From Streptosporangium sp. NBC_01756 (lineage in GTDB: Bacteria; Actinomycetota; Actinomycetes; Streptosporangiales; Streptosporangiaceae): DNA of 64,000 bases. Below the pieces are notes generated by a model. The model saw only the letters and a list, made by a program, of their open reading frames with translations. It did no database searches and was not told the origin of the DNA. The stretch is from assembly GCF_035917975.1 (NCBI RefSeq), contig NZ_CP109130.1, positions 6,448,001-6,512,000 on the forward strand, written 5' to 3'. Positions 2,197 through 9,310 of the stretch are shown here, in pieces (position 1 is the stretch's first letter; the number at the start of each line of letters is the position of its first letter). The position numbers and the translations under genes were made by a program.

Positions 2197-5100
2197 TTAC
2201 CGCGGGTGGGCCGCCGAGCGAAGGGTGAAGGACTTGAGCGTGGTCTGCTCGACCCGGTTACCGGCGATGTCCCAGGCCTCGGCCTTGAGACTGACGGTGC
2301 CGGTGCCGGTGGTGCGGTCGACCTCCGGGTAGGTGGCGGTGGCGGTGAAGGTGCCGTCCTTCTTCTGCTTGACCTGAACGGGGGTCCACTGTTTGCCGTC
2401 GTCGGTGCTGGCCCACAGCTTCAGCCCGGCGATCTTCGGCATTTTCTCCAGTGCGGGTCCGTGGCTGACGTTGACGGTGAATGTGTGCTTTCTGCCCGCC
2501 CGAACGGCGTTGTCCGCGCCGAAGCTGGAGCCGAGGTCGTAGGCGACGTACACCAGGGATTCGGGCCGGCACGGGTCATTCGAGATGACGCCGCAGATGT
2601 GGCCCGGCTGCACGGTGTCCTTGGTGGGCTTCGCCGAGGTGAAGGTCCACGCGACGTCCGTCTGCGCGTCGGTCGCCGTCAGCCGGTAGGTGGCGGCCTC
2701 GGCCGGCAGCGTGTACGCCGGGAATCCGCGGACCAGTGCCAGCGGGATCTCCACGCCATCCCGGGACAGCCGGTACGTGTAACGGAATATGCCGTACATG
2801 TCGTCGTGCTGCTGGAGGCCGTCGTTCTGCCTGACGGTGTGGAAGAAGGGGAACAGGATGTTGCCGCGGCGGCACACGTCACACGGCGTGTTCAGCCCCA
2901 GGGTCGCGGGATACGGCGCGGCAGGGTCGGGGATCCGGTAGACCTTGTCCGGAGCCGTGTAGCCGCCGGGTGTGCGCGGTCCGGCGAACATGCGCTGCCT
3001 GGTACGGATCGGCTGGTCGTACACATCGAGGGCGCTGATCGTCTCGCGGGGAGAGCCCGGCAGGCCCGCGGAGCTGAAGTTCAGGCGAAGGATCTCCGCG
3101 GAGAGCGGTCCGATGTAGTCCCGCCGGGTGTTCGGCCCGGCGGACACCCGGTGCCCGCCGTCCTCGATGGACTCCGCCAAAAGGAGCGCGTCGTCCTGTT
3201 TCCAGCTGAACCTCCAGTCGTTGAACTCGGTGGTGGGGCCGGAGGCGGTGTGCTCCACGTCGACCTGGGCGAGTTGCCTGTCGGTGTAAGTGCGGTGCAG
3301 CGAGTCGGTGATCCGGCCTTCCTCGTACTGCTTGAACGCGTAGGTGTACGGCGTGTCCTGAGTCCCGGTCACCCGGACCGACACCGGCTTCTTGGCGATC
3401 CGGTCGCGCAGGGCAAGGCCCTCACGGGCGGAGAGGGACACATTCGGGATGCCGATGTCCTTCGCCGGGCCGGTGAACGGCTGCTGCGTGATGTTCAGTG
3501 GCACGGGGCAGCGCGCCATCGTCTCGGACGGGAGCGAAGGGAACGCCACCAGCCCGGCGGCACCGGCGTCGCGCACCGCCTGCAGCCGCTCGATCTGTAC
3601 TCCGCACGTGGGGCCGAAGACGTCCTCGGCCATGCCGGCTTCCATCAACGCCAGCTTGCCCTTGAGGTCGAGGCCCGCGAGGTCCTCCGGCCGTCCCGCT
3701 CCCACGTTCACCATGGGCAGGTCCTGGACACCGGTGAACGGAGTCCAACCCGGGAAGCCGTTCTGGTCCTCGATCACCGTGCCGTCAGGGTTCTTCATCG
3801 TCGCCCAGTGCACAGGGGAGAAGACCCGCAGGTCGAGTTTCGGCTTACCCGTGACGGCCAGGTGCACCTCGGCCTGACCGAGGGTCTGCTGGTAGACGAA
3901 CCGGAACCGGCCCTTGGTGACCCGCTCCGTCGGGGTGGCCCACACCTCGTCCCACGACAGATGTGAAAGCCCGCCGGCGAAGGTCACACCATCGGTGGTG
4001 GTCCGCTGGTACGCCTCCGTGATGCTGTTGTTCAGCCGCTCCGCGGGCCTGGGGGTGGTGAAGCGGACCTGGCCGGCCTTGCGGAGATCGAGGGTGATCG
4101 TGGTGTCCTCGGTGACATCCACCTCGGGGTCGCTCAGCCAACCCCAGTTCATCCTGGAGTCGTCGTCGACCCACTGTGCCAGCTGCATGACGCTGTACGT
4201 CCCCCGAGGAACCCGGACGGCGACGACGCCGGTGTCGACCACGTAGGCCGAGCCGGCGTTGCCGTACGGACCGGTCACGTCGATCGTGTCCATCGAGATC
4301 GGGGTGAGGGGGGCGCCGTCTCTGCCGATGGTCTTGACGGTGAGGGTCACCTTCGGTGCTTCCCGGTACAGGCCGACCGGCGTGGTGATCCTGATGCCGT
4401 CCGTCTCCGCGACGACGGCGCCGGTGAAGGTGCCGTAGTCGAGGCCGGCCGGGTTGAGCGTGACCGTCGCGGTGGCGGTGCCGCCCACGGGCACCGCGAG
4501 CGTCTGATCGGCCGAGAGCGCCCCTTCGAGCGGCTTGCCGCCGGTGCTCAGCGTGGGCGTCAGGGTGAGGGTGACCGGCTGGTCTCCCAGGTTGGCGTAG
4601 GTGACCTGCCTGGTCACCGGATCCTTCCCGTCGGGGTCGGCGCCGAAGTCCAGGTTCGGGGTGGTCGCGAGCACCTTCTGGCTGGTCGCCCGAGCCACGT
4701 CGACCCGGCCCGCACCCTGCTCGTAGACGGTGAACCCGTCATCCTTGGCCGTGCTCATCAGTGCCGCCTTGTACTGCGCGGCCGTCCAGTCCGGGTGCTG
4801 CTGGGCCAGGATCGCGGCCGAGCCGGCCACATGCGGGGTCGCCATCGAGGTGCCGCTGGCGGAGGTGTAGTACTCGTCCGCGGGCGACCCCATGCTGGTC
4901 CCTGCGGATCGGGCCGCGACGATGTCGACACCCGGCGCGGCGATGTCCGGCTTGAGCGCGCCGTCCAGCCGCGGGCCGCGGCTGGAGAAGTCCGCCAGCG
5001 TGTCGGTCTTGCTGGTGGCTGCCACCGTCAGCGCCGCGTCGGCTGCGCCGGGCGCGTCGATCGTCTGCGGGGTCGGGCCGCTGTTACCGGCGGCGATCAC

Positions 5101-6213
5101 GAACAGCGCGCCGGTGCTCGCGGTCAGCTCGTTGACCGCCTGGCTCATCGGGTCGCCGCCGTCGGTGGCGCCCGCGCCGATGCTCATGCTGACGATCTTG
5201 GCGCCGTTGGAGGTGGCCCACTCCATGCCGTCGATGACCCAGGACGAATCCCCGTTGCCCGCGTTGTCGAGGACCTTGCCGACCAGCAGCCGGGCGCCGG
5301 GCGCGACCCCCTTGTTCCTGCCGCCGGACGCGCTGCCGGAGCCGGCGATGGTCGAGGCGACGTGCGTGCCGTGGCCGTGCCCGTCGGCCAGCTCCTGGCC
5401 GGGCACGAACGACTGCGAGGCCGCGATCCGATCCGCCAGGTCGGGATGCTTGGTGTCCACGCCCGTGTCGAGCACGGCCACCTTCACCCCGGTGCCGTCC
5501 AGGCCGGCGGCCCAGGCCTGCGGAGCGCCGATCAGCGGCACGCTGTCCGCCAGGGTGAGGTGCACCTTCCGGTCCAGCCAGAGCTTGGCGACGCCCTTGG
5601 CCAGGGCACGGGAGGCCAGGCCCTGCTCGGGGGCGGCCGCGCCGCGTACCTCGGTCCAGAACTGCCCGGCTCCGGCCTTGTCGACGCGGAGCCCGGCACC
5701 GCTGATGCTCGGCAGATCCGCGGTGGCGGTCGTGGCCGGCAGCGCGTCGGCGGCCGACCGTGCGGCCCGCTGTCCCTTCGGGTACTGCACCAGCACCGGG
5801 ACCTGCTTGCTCTGCGCGTCGGTGTAGCCGTTCTCGGCGAGGTACTTGACGTTGAACAGCTCCCGGTCCACCCGTCCCGACTCCACCGCAGGCAGCGCGT
5901 CGGTGGGGTAGACGTAGACGCCGCCGGGGCCGGTCTTGGTGAGGAAGCCCGGATGGACTCCGTCGGGGCGGGCGGCGGGCTTGACGTCGATGGAGTAGGG
6001 GCCGTCGCCGTTGTCTCCGAGCGTCACGGTGTCACCGGTGATCAGCGTGATCTCGTGGGGCCCGGGGGCGACGCCGTCCAGGGTGACGGTGTCCTTCGCG
6101 GGCGGGGTCTGGGCGGTGCCGGGGTCGGCGTACGTCGCCGTGACCGGCACCATCGTCGCGACTGTGATCGCGGCGACGACGGATATGCGTAACCGTCGCT
6201 TCGAGCGTGGCAT
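2197..6213 (-). CDS. secreted S8 family serine protease (subtilase), 1338 aa
   Basis: A large exported subtilisin-like endopeptidase. The N-terminus (MPRSKRRLRIS followed by a hydrophobic stretch and A-x-A-like end) is a Sec signal peptide. A propeptide of roughly 200 residues precedes the catalytic domain. The triad is visible: Asp249 in VAVLDTGVD, His284 in DGHGHGTHVA and Ser456 in SGTSMATPHVAG, with the oxyanion Asn377 in AAGNSG. About 850 residues follow, including a possible PA-like insertion and beta-rich domains of unknown role. The ATG at 6213 is chosen because GAGGAG stands six bases upstream; a start at 6255 lacks one. It lies 38 bases after a 36-residue peptide gene on the same strand and downstream of a LAL regulator, so co-expression is likely. 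The natural substrate is unknown. Confidence 0.93.
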   Translation of the reverse strand: MPRSKRRLRISVVAAITVATMVPVTATYADPGTAQTPPAKDTVTLDGVAPGPHEITLITGDTVTLGDNGDGPYSIDVKPAARPDGVHPGFLTKTGPGGVYVYPTDALPAVESGRVDRELFNVKYLAENGYTDAQSKQVPVLVQYPKGQRAARSAADALPATTATADLPSISGAGLRVDKAGAGQFWTEVRGAAAPEQGLASRALAKGVAKLWLDRKVHLTLADSVPLIGAPQAWAAGLDGTGVKVAVLDTGVDTKHPDLADRIAASQSFVPGQELADGHGHGTHVASTIAGSGSASGGRNKGVAPGARLLVGKVLDNAGNGDSSWVIDGMEWATSNGAKIVSMSIGAGATDGGDPMSQAVNELTASTGALFVIAAGNSGPTPQTIDAPGAADAALTVAATSKTDTLADFSSRGPRLDGALKPDIAAPGVDIVAARSAGTSMGSPADEYYTSASGTSMATPHVAGSAAILAQQHPDWTAAQYKAALMSTAKDDGFTVYEQGAGRVDVARATSQKVLATTPNLDFGADPDGKDPVTRQVTYANLGDQPVTLTLTPTLSTGGKPLEGALSADQTLAVPVGGTATATVTLNPAGLDYGTFTGAVVAETDGIRITTPVGLYREAPKVTLTVKTIGRDGAPLTPISMDTIDVTGPYGNAGSAYVVDTGVVAVRVPRGTYSVMQLAQWVDDDSRMNWGWLSDPEVDVTEDTTITLDLRKAGQVRFTTPRPAERLNNSITEAYQRTTTDGVTFAGGLSHLSWDEVWATPTERVTKGRFRFVYQQTLGQAEVHLAVTGKPKLDLRVFSPVHWATMKNPDGTVIEDQNGFPGWTPFTGVQDLPMVNVGAGRPEDLAGLDLKGKLALMEAGMAEDVFGPTCGVQIERLQAVRDAGAAGLVAFPSLPSETMARCPVPLNITQQPFTGPAKDIGIPNVSLSAREGLALRDRIAKKPVSVRVTGTQDTPYTYAFKQYEEGRITDSLHRTYTDRQLAQVDVEHTASGPTTEFNDWRFSWKQDDALLLAESIEDGGHRVSAGPNTRRDYIGPLSAEILRLNFSSAGLPGSPRETISALDVYDQPIRTRQRMFAGPRTPGGYTAPDKVYRIPDPAAPYPATLGLNTPCDVCRRGNILFPFFHTVRQNDGLQQHDDMYGIFRYTYRLSRDGVEIPLALVRGFPAYTLPAEAATYRLTATDAQTDVAWTFTSAKPTKDTVQPGHICGVISNDPCRPESLVYVAYDLGSSFGADNAVRAGRKHTFTVNVSHGPALEKMPKIAGLKLWASTDDGKQWTPVQVKQKKDGTFTATATYPEVDRTTGTGTVSLKAEAWDIAGNRVEQTTLKSFTLRSAAHPR

Positions 6214-6251
6214 GAGTCTCCTCGGGAGGGGGGTGAGGTAGGGCCGGTGGT

Positions 6252-6362
6252 TCACAGTTCGACCCAGCCGTTATCGGAGTCGGGCAGCTCAGCCGGCTCG
6301 GGGACGCTCTCGTCCTCCTCATTGGGATCCGGCTCGGCATGCTGTGGGTTGATCTCGGACAT
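6252..6362 (-). CDS. 36-residue acidic peptide gene upstream of the subtilase
   Basis: An ATG-initiated frame that encodes MSEINPQHAEPDPNEEDESV at its start and ends in DNGWVEL. It contains 8 Glu, 4 Asp, no Lys, Arg or Cys, and one Trp near the C-terminus. It lies between the LAL regulator gene (57 bases upstream) and the subtilase gene (38 bases downstream), all on one strand. There is no clear Shine-Dalgarno sequence, but two palindromes fill the space before it. I do not recognise a family. It could be a peptide signal, a protease substrate or inhibitor, or a translated leader. The orderly composition and position argue for a real gene; the short length and missing ribosome-binding site argue against. 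Confidence 0.5.
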   Translation of the reverse strand: MSEINPQHAEPDPNEEDESVPEPAELPDSDNGWVEL

Positions 6363-6381
6363 GCCACAAGGGTCACGGGTG

Positions 6382-6415
6382 AGGTGGGCGCCTACCTATG
6401 GGGTAAACACCCCAT
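6382..6415. promoter_or_regulatory. two adjacent palindromes, putative operator
   Basis: AGGTGGGCGCCTACCT (6382-6397) is a palindrome with one mismatched pair. It abuts the perfect inverted repeat ATGGGGT-AAAC-ACCCCAT (6398-6415). Both fall in the 57 bases between the LAL regulator stop and the peptide gene. There is no U-tract, so an operator is more likely than a terminator. LAL regulators such as PimM bind GGG-rich palindromes, which makes autogenous or downstream control plausible but unproved. Confidence 0.45.
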
Positions 6416-6418
6416 CAA

Positions 6419-9310
6419 TTAGCCGGCCCCGTCACGCAGGTGGTGAGCGAGCGCGGTCCGCGAGTGCAGCCCGAGCTTGCGCAGTGCCGCGCCGAGGTGC
6501 TTGTCGACGGTCTTGACCGACAGGAACAGCTCCCGGGCGATCTCCTTGTTCGACAGCCCGGTCGCGGCCAGCCTGGCCACCTCGTCCTCGCGGGGCGACA
6601 GTGTGGAGCCGTAGCCGCGCGGGCCGCTGCGGTGCCGGGCGGGCGAGGAGACGCCCTGACGGCGGGCCAGCAGCGCGGCGCGGTCCAGGTCCCAGCGCGC
6701 TCCGAGCCGGCCGTACTCGGTGAGGGTCTGCTGGAGTAGATCCTCGGCGCGCCGGTCGCCGAGACGGAACAGGCAGCCGGCTGCCTGCTCTCTGGCCTGG
6801 GCGGCCTCGTACGGACAGCAGAGGCGGTCGTACGCCTCCGCGGCGGTCAGGAGTTGGTCGGCGGCGGCCTGCCAACGCGCGGTCCCGGCCATGATCAGTC
6901 CTCGGGCCTGGGCCAGCGCGGCCGGTGCGAGTGGCGCGTCCAGCCCGCGTAAGCGCTGCTCGACGCGGCTCACCAGCTCTTCGGCCTTCCCCAGCCGGCC
7001 CGTGACGACGAGAGCCTCCACCAGGGCGGGCACGGTGCGTACTGAGACAGGCCAGAGCCCCCTGGCCTCCCATACCGCGCAGGTCGCTTCAGCCCTCTCG
7101 AGCACCGCCGCGCCACCGCCCTGTGTCGCGGTCAGCCGGATGTATGCACTCATCGGCAGCGGCAGCAGGTCGATCGCGCCCATGGCCAGGCACCGATCCA
7201 CCACATCGTCGAGCTGGCGCCGGGCGGCGTCGAGCTCGCCGCGTGCGAGAGCCAGGCAGGCGGCGATCGCGTCCACGAGGGCGCGATCGCGCGGGTGGTC
7301 GGTGAGCCGATCCATCAGGAAGGCCACCTCCTCTGCCAGGCCATCCCAGGCACCCCGGGAGTAAGCGAGCACCGCAAGCCCTTTGCGGCAAAATATCTCC
7401 GCCATTCGGGTGGCGTCGCAGCCCGCCGCCCCGCGCATCGCCGCGGTCAGCAGATGCTCGGCCATCTCATGGTGTCCGGCGTAGCAGGCATCCATCCCGA
7501 GCGAGCTGTAGGCGATCACCTCCCGGCGGTGCACCGGGGCCCCGCCGGTCTGCTCCAGCATGCGAGAGGCCAGTGTGGCCCAGCGCGGATCCCCCATCGC
7601 CGTCAGCACCATGGCGACCTTGCCGAGGATGAAGACCGTCAGGGCGGGCTCGTCGATCGCGGGCAGTTGTTCCAGGGCCCGCTCCAGCCAGGCCATGTGT
7701 TCGGCCAGGGGTACGTTCGGCGTCGTAGGCAGGCCTAGTCCCACCATCGCGTGCACGGCGAGAGCGGGCTGGCCGTCGAGGTACTGCACTGCTTCGGCGA
7801 AGACCTGCCATTGTTGTTCTGGTTTGTCCGCAGTCCTCTCGAGGTTCACGGCGAGCAGGAAGAGCAGTTCCCCCCGCACTGACCGGGGCAGCTCACGTTC
7901 CAGTGCGTCGCTGAGCAGGCCGACGACGTTCACTTCCTGCCGGGCGTCGATGGCGGCCCATCCCACTTTCACCGTGAGCCGGCTCCGTCGTCCGTCATCC
8001 AGCGGGGCGTGGCGCAGTACCGCTTCCAGTAGGCGCACGGCCTCGGAGTCGTCGCCGAGTGCGATCGCCCGGTCGGCGGCCTTCTCCGCCGCCGCCACCC
8101 AGTCCTGGACCAGGCCGGCGTGGCGGAGGTGGTGGGCCACCTGCCCCAGCGGTACCGGGTTCAGTTCCCGGACGGCCGAGGCGGCGCGGCTGTGCAGGTC
8201 CTGCCGCCGTGACAGCGGGATGCTGTCATAGATGGCCTGTACGGCCAGCAGATGCCGGAACCCGACCTTTCCCGACTGCTCAAGGAGCAGGCCGCGCTCC
8301 AGCGCCTCGTCCAGACCGTCGAGCGCTTCCTGTCGCGACACCCGGCCGGTGGCGACCAGCGCAGGCACCGGGACCAGTACTTGGAGCACGGCGGCGGCCT
8401 CGACCGTGGCCCGCGCGGTGGCTGTCAGGCGGCTCACTCGCTCCAGGACCGAGTCCCGCACCCCGGTGGGCACGTCCAGCTCGTCGATGGTCTTGCGCGC
8501 CCACCCGCTGCCCCGCCGTACCAGGGTGCCCCGCGACCGCAGGAGAGCGAGCAGTTCCTGGATGGCGAACGGCAGCCCTGAGGTGCGTTCGCATAGATAA
8601 GCGGCGAAATCCTCTGAAACGCGTACCGCGCCCAGGACCGAGGCCGCCAGCTCGCTGGTCGCGGCCGCGTCGAACGGCGGCAGCACGACCTGCACGCGGG
8701 TCACAGAGGCGGGCAGCCGGGCGGTCAGAGCCCTGACACCGGGGTCGACCTCCTCGCCGCGGAAGGTGAGTATCAAGCAGAGCCCGGCGGGTGGCTCGGA
8801 GAGTAGGTAGCCGAGGAACTCGGCGGTCTGCTCGTCGGCCCAGTGCATGTCCTCCAGTACCAGCACCACCGGACCGAGAGAGCCGAGTAACTCGGCCAAT
8901 CCGCGGAAGACCAGGTGTCGCTCGCCGACCCTGTCGCCCAGTGGCTCGGGCATCGCGGGGAGCAGATGGGCGAGTTCGGGCAGCAGCGGACGCAGCGCCC
9001 CCGTCACCGATGACAGGCCGGCGGCGGTCAGATACTCGCCGCCGCCGCGGAGCGCCTCGACGACGGGCCCGAGGGGGAACGGTTCGCGGATGTGCACGCA
9101 GCCGCCGGTCAGCACGGGCCGATCGGCGAGCTCCGGCCTGGAGGCCAACTCGGCCACCAGGCGGGTTTTGCCTATTCCCGCCTCGCCCTCGATCACGAGC
9201 ACGGCCGGTGGGCGGGCCAGGGCCGGCAACAGCCGCTGGAGTTCATCATCCCTGCCCACCAGGGTCGGTGAGACGATCTGTCCGGTGGCCTCAACGTTTC
9301 GGGGGTTCAC
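6419..9310 (-). CDS. LAL-type LuxR family transcriptional regulator
   Basis: A large ATP-binding regulator of about 963 residues. An N-terminal AAA-type ATPase module carries Walker A ([11 protein letters not shown]) and a Walker B-like [12 protein letters not shown]. The long middle part is TPR-like. The C-terminal LuxR helix-turn-helix reads [20 protein letters not shown] then [15 protein letters not shown]. Such proteins act as signal- or nucleotide-dependent activators of neighbouring genes. An in-frame TTG at 9370 has no ribosome-binding site, so the GTG at 9310 with CGAGG eight bases upstream is preferred. The peptide and subtilase genes follow on the same strand, the most likely targets. 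The inducer is unknown. Confidence 0.9.

Follow-up and report, generated by a model that had tools for sequence, protein, structure and literature searches.

Many actinobacteria carry a LAL regulator gene beside a gene encoding a tiny acidic protein. The end of this protein is conserved and predicted to dock on the LAL, which suggests a so far undescribed control of secreted proteases and other enzymes. The short protein is most likely the dedicated partner of the LAL, as indicated by its conserved C-terminus, by its occurrence next to related regulators and by the diversity of the genes found on its other side.

Organization of the locus

The analysed window, a 64,000-nucleotide stretch of the Streptosporangium sp. 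NBC_01756 chromosome, carries on its minus strand the genes for a LAL regulator (positions 6419..9310; 963 aa), a short acidic peptide (6252..6362; 36 aa, MSEINPQHAEPDPNEEDESVPEPAELPDSDNGWVEL) and a subtilase of the S8 family (2197..6213; 1338 aa) with a signal-like N-terminus. The order and common strand agree with the original prediction, as does the 38 nt gap between the peptide and subtilase genes; the gap separating the LAL and peptide genes is 56 nt, rather than 57. The peptide has a computed net charge of -12, lacks Lys, Arg and Cys residues, and terminates with DNGWVEL (codons at 6255..6275, minus strand, at the end of the gene), in keeping with the composition, end and charge of about -12 previously attributed to it. 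A GAGGAG sequence resembling a ribosome-binding site (6218..6223, minus strand) can be read ahead of the subtilase ATG. The Peptidase_S8 domain of the subtilase (residues 240-502, 4708..5496, minus strand; Pfam E-value 6.6e-66) contains catalytic D, H and S motifs recognized by eye, and is preceded by approximately 200 residues, which leave room for a propeptide.

A family of short acidic peptides

Peptides of the family are acidic, range from 27 to 68 residues in length and end with the pattern [F/W/Y]-x-[P/E]-[L/V/A]-stop, mostly in the extended form [D/E]-G-[W/F/Y]-x-[P/E]-[L/V/A], the end being free. A short acidic ORF with this ending lies downstream of the LAL gene in 56 of 69 related LAL loci, and at two further loci the peptide is displaced or interrupted by the contig end. 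The LALs accompanied by the peptide belong to two related clades, and none of the 38 LALs of a separate clade has a motif peptide. At the remaining 11 of the 69 LALs, all outside the 38-member clade, no peptide was recognized; one of these loci (L224) features a variant ending in GAHEPL, and another (L102) the motif without a stop codon. Among ORFs located after LAL genes, the motif ends 57 of 306 in the sense orientation versus 2 of 359 in the antisense orientation (Fisher p 2e-18), as counted with a motif rule set after many of these loci had been seen; none of the 113 sense ORFs following LALs of the 38-member clade carries it.

The motif table was built from 112 loci, of which 107 were counted, as L117, L124, L130, L131 and L233 have no usable LAL C-terminus. 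The duplicates L097, L099, L100 and L106 had been dropped beforehand, and loci with weaker LAL matches (L132-L174) were left out. One ORF scan, of 80 loci, was limited to those where the LAL C-terminus could be located. The alignment behind the searches for LAL loci was made from 15 peptide-bearing loci, and the LAL and S8 searches kept only the best candidates per genome (5, 2 and 4), so that each genome has at least the number of pairs counted.

Purifying selection is acting on the last ten peptide codons. The pooled pN/pS is 0.22 over these codons and 0.65 over the rest, as calculated from 24 overlapping pairs that share loci, some of them read from the longest possible start, which brings non-coding codons into the N-terminal part. 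The motif counts, the pN/pS values and the conservation in relatives confirm that the ORF is a real peptide gene, as originally proposed; its frame, the loss of which in relatives had been named as grounds for abandoning the proposal, is conserved.

The window peptide and six others yielded no match in Pfam or NCBIfam (7 peptides), and the window peptide none in plasmid records. In tblastn searches of 149 genomes, including its own, the window peptide had one true match beyond the window (94%, in genome G002). Matches in seven other genomes, located in frames of 132-691 codons, were taken as low-complexity chance hits. The view that the peptide is private to two genomes, which rested on tblastn alone, was overturned by paralogous LAL-S8 pairs. 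A Rosetta-stone test found the motif at the end of none of 107 LALs. EPDP occurs in the window peptide, and Pro alternates with Asp/Glu in several other members. No hydrophobic N-terminal signal is evident by eye in the peptides. C-termini are very similar among paralogues of one genome (L090-L094 and L255).

A dyad upstream of the peptide gene

A dyad, TGGGGTGTTTACCCCAT, is found at 6398..6414 (minus strand) and is a putative LAL operator. A dyad precedes the peptide ATG at 33 of 55 loci, lying at -43 to -46.5 in 24 loci and at -55/-56 in 9, and occurs at these spacings in none of 189 control ATGs; as defined, it is absent at the other 22 peptide loci. Only three exact copies are present in the 9.0-Mb genome, each ahead of a motif peptide, and searching this genome with the dyad alone turned up another peptide-subtilase pair. 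With one mismatch allowed, the same genome contains 6 sites, versus 2 for the reversed control pattern; a new match at 1123543 has no peptide and was taken as chance. Exact searches of 90 genomes gave 8 matches, of which all but those in G108 and G097 were inspected, versus 3 for the reversed control. Closer to the peptide gene, a GACCCT hexamer resembling a -10 element (nAnnnT; 6369..6374, minus strand) can be read 7-12 nt upstream of the ATG, and would give a leaderless mRNA. A consensus scan revealed no sigma-70 site, and standard promoter and terminator scans did not exceed shuffled sequences.

Genes flanking the LAL-peptide pair

A large gene closely follows the peptide gene in many loci, and its identity varies while LAL and peptide remain paired. 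The neighbours include subtilases of two distant lineages, Kelch proteins, GH3 proteins and LacI/sugar-ABC genes. Six loci (L216, L218, L219, L221, L225 and L234) have the peptide beside the LAL but lack a subtilase match over a distance of 2.5 kb, and a secreted-protein gene was not found close behind the peptide. Pfam gave no peptidase match for the exported Kelch/CarboxypepD_reg proteins at L123 and L257; they were not counted as non-proteases, because the L257 protein may, from a motif in its sequence, be a sedolisin-type protease. The aromatic class of the peptide requires 4 changes on the LAL tree versus 7 on the subtilase tree (41 loci; the counts are small). The peptide thus follows the regulator more closely than it follows the protease. 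The earlier assignment of the peptide to the LAL is borne out by the 56 of 69 loci and by the aromatic class, which follows the LAL tree, and the suggestion that the gene set makes up a single circuit is upheld as probable.

Predicted structure of the regulator

The LAL matches AAA_16 (3.9e-22) and, at its C-terminus, the LuxR-type HTH GerE (6.1e-18). The N-terminus is the STAND ATPase, with a P-loop in which the GEAGIGKTR block is conserved; an N-terminal XRE-type HTH is absent, the HTH being of the C-terminal LuxR type. The TPR-like middle part, between the ATPase core and the HTH, is all-helical in AlphaFold2 models of two relatives (L071 and L206). Foldseek searches with the L071 model gave matches to TPR proteins and STAND proteins, with the STAND anti-phage protein Avs3 (8dgc) first and PH0952 (6MFV) second, at low full-length TM-scores (0.22 and 0.23 of the query).

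These two AlphaFold2 models are of read-through fusions of LAL and peptide, from regulators that are 38% identical. In both, the final aromatic-x-x of the peptide forms a beta strand, covering WVE and WEP in the same register. Block means of the tail pLDDT range from 24 to 36, and the end rises to 65 in L071 (residues 1011-1015) and to 50-59 in L206 (residues 991-1002); values of 50-65 are modest, and come from the best of five models of tethered chains whose motif is conserved in the input alignment. The last residues of the peptide are thus predicted to dock on the LAL.

LAL residues 259-275 (8486..8536, minus strand) are predicted to fold as a beta hairpin, as judged from the strands in the L071 model, and may be the place where the peptide C-terminus docks. 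This segment is missing or different in the 16 LALs inspected from the 38-member clade. The hairpin need not be the peptide site, since peptide-less LALs within the two clades (L096, L204, L207 and others) retain it and a Trp-bearing hairpin at that position may be common in such ATPases. Among the LAL columns, that of residue 267, which sits in the turn of the hairpin, scores highest for changing in step with the aromatic class of the peptide, according to an ad hoc score based on few independent transitions and with L229 left out of the F group. Its apparent coevolution is a weak clue, as the next-ranked columns (459, 205 and 688) lie elsewhere.

Proposed mechanism and alternatives

The data as a whole are best explained by a dedicated LAL-peptide pair, with a promoter under the LAL, a docking peptide and, as the likeliest outcome, negative feedback; we consider this explanation moderately probable. 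The LAL would bind the dyad and activate the promoter, the transcript starting at or near the peptide ATG. The peptide would be made first, followed in most loci by a large exported protein such as a subtilase. Remaining in the cytosol, the peptide would dock on the LAL with its final four residues in a beta strand, perhaps on the hairpin (residues 263-273), the acidic disordered part serving as a tether. The peptide is probably a feedback ligand, which would keep the STAND regulator resting after its own promoter has fired, as MalY does with MalT. Regulation may also have the opposite sign, that of positive feedback.

Some of these features would suit a pheromone of the RRNPP kind, in which the peptide would be exported and its C-terminal residues, freed perhaps by the subtilase, would re-enter the cell to bind the LAL in a form of quorum sensing. 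The regulator gene adjoins the peptide gene, the receptor is of the TPR type, conservation is focused on the peptide C-terminus and a secreted subtilase is present at many loci, a setting comparable to Rap-Phr and PlcR-PapR. Such a pheromone is unlikely, however, given peptides with no evident signal, very similar C-termini of same-genome paralogues (L090-L094 and L255), which would cross-talk, and six pairs with no subtilase match beside them. To a similarly low degree, the peptide could be a leader peptide, of the regulatory sort represented by MgtL and TnaC: translation of an acidic, Pro-rich ORF at the mRNA 5' end would sense ribosome stability, or stall at the stop codon, and thereby set downstream expression. 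This proposal fits the position of the peptide as the first ORF downstream of the dyad, perhaps on a leaderless mRNA, the EPDP and related Pro-Asp/Glu alternations, and the L255 locus, where a dyad-peptide-subtilase unit is retained and about 9 kb around it contain no match to a LAL. It fits less well with the many members in which the alternation is missing, with the aromatic class, which follows the LAL and not the subtilase, and with the same six loci, where the sequence close behind the peptide revealed no gene for a secreted protein.

A role of the peptide as an inhibitor, chaperone or substrate of the exported protease, in line with the self-inhibition raised in the original prediction, is now regarded as very unlikely. 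The peptide gene does adjoin a protease gene at many loci, and the dyad, peptide and subtilase stay together both in L255 and in L072, where the LAL lies behind them, an arrangement which still favours a link with the protease. Nevertheless, an export signal is not evident in the peptide, the window subtilase has room for its own propeptide, and the motif is common to two distant subtilase lineages and to loci with GH3 or LacI/sugar-ABC neighbours, which set the inhibitor reading back; the six LALs without a subtilase and the 4 versus 7 changes point the same way. Finally, a short, low-complexity ORF with no family match might have arisen between two genes as a by-product of high GC content, with no selection on it. 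This reading is at odds with the placement of the dyad and is judged refuted by the motif counts and the purifying selection. We therefore retain the LAL-peptide feedback pair as the preferred explanation.

Comparison with known systems and significance

The closest known parallels to the proposed feedback pair include MalT of E. coli with inhibitory partners such as MalY, the gene for which is not known to lie beside malT. MalT, like the LAL, is a transcription-controlling STAND ATPase with a TPR-type sensor, and is restrained by a dedicated protein, as is inferred here; MalY is a full-size protein, in contrast to the acidic peptides of 27-68 residues described here, which have a conserved, free C-terminus and are encoded beside their regulators. 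MalY binds MalT at one of its oligomerisation interfaces and reinforces the autoinhibition mediated by ADP (PMC10427625). In Streptomyces, the NOD/TPR regulator AfsR recognises a box within the afsS promoter, which it activates, and AfsS in turn has a regulatory role (PMC10936776). The DNA-binding domain is of the SARP type in AfsR and a LuxR HTH in the LAL. The gene for AfsS, a small protein, adjoins afsR. PH0952 (PDB 6MFV) is likewise a STAND protein with a TPR sensor, but is archaeal, and the available portion of its description mentions no partner peptide.

In RRNPP systems (Rap-Phr, PlcR-PapR), the active part lies at the peptide C-terminus and the receptor is a TPR protein; the DNA-binding receptors have an N-terminal XRE-type HTH, and the propeptide mostly carries an N-terminal export signal. 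As in these systems, the peptide gene adjoins the receptor gene; here, in contrast, the receptor would be a LAL of the STAND type, its LuxR HTH lying at the C-terminus, and the peptide shows no evident signal for export. The source abstract describes RRNPP systems for Firmicutes and their mobile elements, whereas the present pairs occur in actinobacteria. Among the matches listed in open-licence PMC text, at the level of titles and the start of abstracts, no such peptide or system is described.

Actinobacteria have large numbers of LAL regulators, most of which have no known ligand. STAND proteins are relatives of the NLR immune receptors. If the proposed pairing is true, the co-encoded peptide, with its four-residue C-terminal key, would offer the whole LAL clade a concrete candidate ligand that is easy to synthesise, and STAND proteins would gain a short-peptide mode of control; a gene family absent from Pfam and NCBIfam is also indicated. 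A broader and rather doubtful reading is STAND-based peptide sensing in Actinomycetota, in which the C-terminal tetrapeptide of a signal-less acidic precursor would be read by the cognate LAL, within or between cells, the LAL controlling the precursor and exported proteases or other enzymes. If this were true, the pairs would represent a widespread class of peptide signalling outside RRNPP, absent from the searched family libraries.

Organization of the LAL–peptide–subtilase locus

The locus is encoded on the reverse strand and comprises a LAL regulator (9310–6419; Pfam AAA_16 and LuxR HTH), a 36-codon acidic peptide ORF (6362–6252; no Pfam match) and a subtilase of 1338 residues (6213–2197; Pfam Peptidase_S8 and a sub-threshold PA domain). 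The gene order on one strand and the 38-nt gap between peptide and subtilase are as given in the original prediction, while the LAL–peptide gap measures 56 nt instead of 57. The open subtilase frame extends 5' to a GTG (6255–6213; 1352 aa) overlapping the stop codon of the peptide, so translational coupling of the two genes is possible at this locus. Both the LAL and the subtilase can be assigned to known families by sequence. None of seven peptides searched matched a Pfam or NCBIfam model.

A family of acidic peptides with a conserved end

In a tblastn search of 149 genomes, the window peptide was matched in one other genome (94% identity), the remaining matches being noise. Paralogous LALs and subtilases adjoin each other, and the same genome, a single 9.0-Mb contig, contains at least three further LAL–S8 pairs, with a fifth LAL adjoining another subtilase. 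A short acidic ORF is present in all 19 LAL-to-protease gaps displayed, the window's own included. These peptides mostly start with MSE, MSD or MPE, and their ends include PDDGWVEV, LPEGFEPL, TPDGFEPV, PDDGYVPL and EDGWVPL.

Overall, 107 usable loci, derived from relatives, named genomes and a class-wide profile search (394 genomes), were scored for ORFs of 20–95 codons ending in [FWY].[PED][LVA] at most 850 nt from the LAL stop, a rule set after many of the counted loci had been viewed. Since the profile was built from 15 LALs adjoining peptides, the named-genome and class-wide searches are biased towards the two related LAL clades that carry the peptide. Motif-ending ORFs accounted for 57/306 in the sense orientation versus 2/359 in the antisense orientation (Fisher p 2e-18). 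In the LAL tree (FastTree, midpoint root), the motif is absent from a clade of 38 rows and present in 56 of the other 69 (class search 25/31, named genomes 9/14, relatives 22/24). The remaining two relatives are L072, in which the motif is displaced, and L086, cut by the contig end. No peptide was recognised in 11 of the 69 rows, including L102, L224, which has the variant end GAHEPL, and L128, a very long branch; L242, a motif-bearing row, is a long branch too, and its motif may be due to chance.

Peptides are 27–68 residues long (median 41), with a net charge of -5 to -18. Among 56 distinct peptides, the aromatic residue at position -4 is W in 26, F in 15 and Y in 15; at position -2, 52 peptides have P and 4 have E; at position -1, 38 have L, 16 V and 2 A. 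The conserved end is under purifying selection, pN/pS being 0.22 in the last ten codons versus 0.65 elsewhere (24 pooled, overlapping pairs). The L219 peptide is intact, and its distance from the LAL is ~550 nt longer than in relatives.

Some loci depart from this pattern. In L205 (G149:C1:707200-716200), the tail EPADGEHWEPL occurs twice in tandem, 44–158 and 215–353 nt after the LAL stop, as if partially duplicated. In L102 (Actinomadura harenae), EEWVDA is found 3' of the LAL with no stop codon after it, possibly a decaying copy.

A dyad upstream of the peptides

A dyad with the consensus TGGG-N6-8-CCCA, a putative LAL operator, lies between the LAL stop and the peptide ATG or overlaps that stop; in the window it is TGGGGTGTTTACCCCAT (6414–6398). 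Of 55 peptide loci, 33 have it: in 24 its centre lies -43 to -46.5 from the chosen ATG and in 9 it lies at -55/-56, the two positions differing by one helical turn. No dyad was found within 80 nt of any of the 189 ATGs following LALs of the 38-row clade. A consensus scan revealed no standard promoter. Many loci, as judged by eye, feature an nAnnnT hexamer directly 5' of the ATG, which suggests a leaderless peptide mRNA; in L230–L232 the hexamer is replaced by a ribosome-binding-like site.

When one mismatch was allowed, the window's genome contained 6 sites, compared with 2 for a reversed control pattern. Four are at LAL–peptide loci, one is probably due to chance, and one, at 4680763, was previously unrecognised. 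The latter (L255, G000:C1:4671000-4690900) is followed by a peptide, MPKRAPDDRDEHEQDADSGPAPELDDSWVDV, and by a subtilase 45% identical to that of the window, with no LAL match within ~9 kb. As the dyad search alone led to this unit, L255 is a blind success of the motif, and it shows that a peptide can be retained without an adjacent LAL; the unit is perhaps run in trans by a LAL of this clade encoded elsewhere in the genome. In 90 genomes, the exact dyad occurs at 8 sites (control 3), and all 6 sites inspected are peptide loci.

Peptides vary with the LAL more than with the protease

Among the loci in the subtilase tree, the gene 3' of the peptide belongs to one large S8 lineage in 37/42 and to a distant S8 lineage in 5/42 (L093, L103, L107, L222 and L226; L103 and L222 carry CarboxypepD_reg domains). 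Other neighbours include exported Kelch/CarboxypepD_reg proteins (L123 and L257, the latter on a Streptomyces plasmid), a gene without Pfam match (L089), GH3 glycosidases 209–303 nt from the peptide (L216, L225) and LacI regulator and sugar-ABC genes (L218, L221, L234). L219 has an ABC gene, and its next ORF has no match. The dyad as defined was not recognised at L216, L218, L219, L221, L225 and L234, all from the family of Jiangella. In L072 (G039), where the LAL is found on the far side of the subtilase, the unit of dyad, peptide (ending in DDGWVDA) and subtilase is nevertheless unbroken.

For the same 41 loci, the aromatic class, i.e. the residue at position -4, changes 4 times on the LAL tree versus 7 times on the subtilase tree. 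Moreover, L093, which pairs a window-type LAL with a distant subtilase, has a window-type motif, and L084, with a distant LAL and a window-like subtilase, has a distant-type motif. These comparisons indicate that the peptide is tied more closely to the LAL and its promoter than to the protease. The L093 subtilase (G000:C1:1420000-1434000), encoded behind the fifth LAL–peptide pair of the window's genome, is apparently frameshifted right after the signal sequence; its peptide is intact.

Predicted docking of the peptide on the LAL

Where LAL and peptide share a reading frame, as they do at some loci, natural DNA translated through the stops (as Gln) yields a tethered fusion. In the AlphaFold2 model of L071 (41-row alignment; mean pLDDT 85), pLDDT is 27–36 in blocks 961–1010 and averages 65 at residues 1011–1015, with a strand at 1012–1014 (WVE of DGWVEV). 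In Jiangella L206, whose LAL is 37–38% identical to that of L071, pLDDT (38 rows) is 24–33 in blocks 951–990, 50 at 991–1000 and 59 at the last two residues, and a strand is predicted in the same register at 999–1001 (WEP of RWEPL). As a strand requires a partner, both models place the predicted peptide C-terminus on the LAL.

One clue to the docking partner is LAL residue 267 (window numbering), the top column for parallel change with aromatic class by an ad hoc score that reflects few independent transitions. In W-type loci it is Gly in 13/14 of one clade and 13/13 of the other; 15 F types (F-type L229 left out) have Glu (8), Ser (6) or Lys (1), and 14 Y types include 9 with Asp and 2 with Gly. 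Residue 267 is at the turn of a predicted hairpin that is kept in peptide-less LALs of the two clades and is absent or different in 16 displayed LALs of the 38-row clade.

A model for the LAL–peptide system

We propose that the LAL, which resembles MalT and PH0952 in being a STAND switch, would bind the dyad and induce expression of the peptide gene and usually also of a gene for an exported enzyme. By eye, no signal sequence is evident in the peptide, which to that extent would be cytosolic; it would bind the LAL through its free C-terminus. Negative feedback on the LAL is the likeliest outcome by analogy with MalY, by which MalT is kept in a resting form (PMC10427625). The peptide could also be a co-activator of the LAL or a pheromone-like signal; the window LAL, with an ATPase at the N-terminus and a C-terminal LuxR HTH, is not a receptor of the RRNPP type.

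Secreted protease genes also adjoin peptide-less LALs outside the peptide clades, with S8 matches in L056, L064 and L130 and trypsin-like genes, judged by eye, in L058 and L110. LAL control of proteases may thus be wider than this system. Among the matches listed, open PMC text contained no report of such a peptide or system. The LAL–peptide pair, known here from sequence and models, may be likened to the known regulator–partner pairs MalT–MalY, AfsR–AfsS and Rap–Phr.
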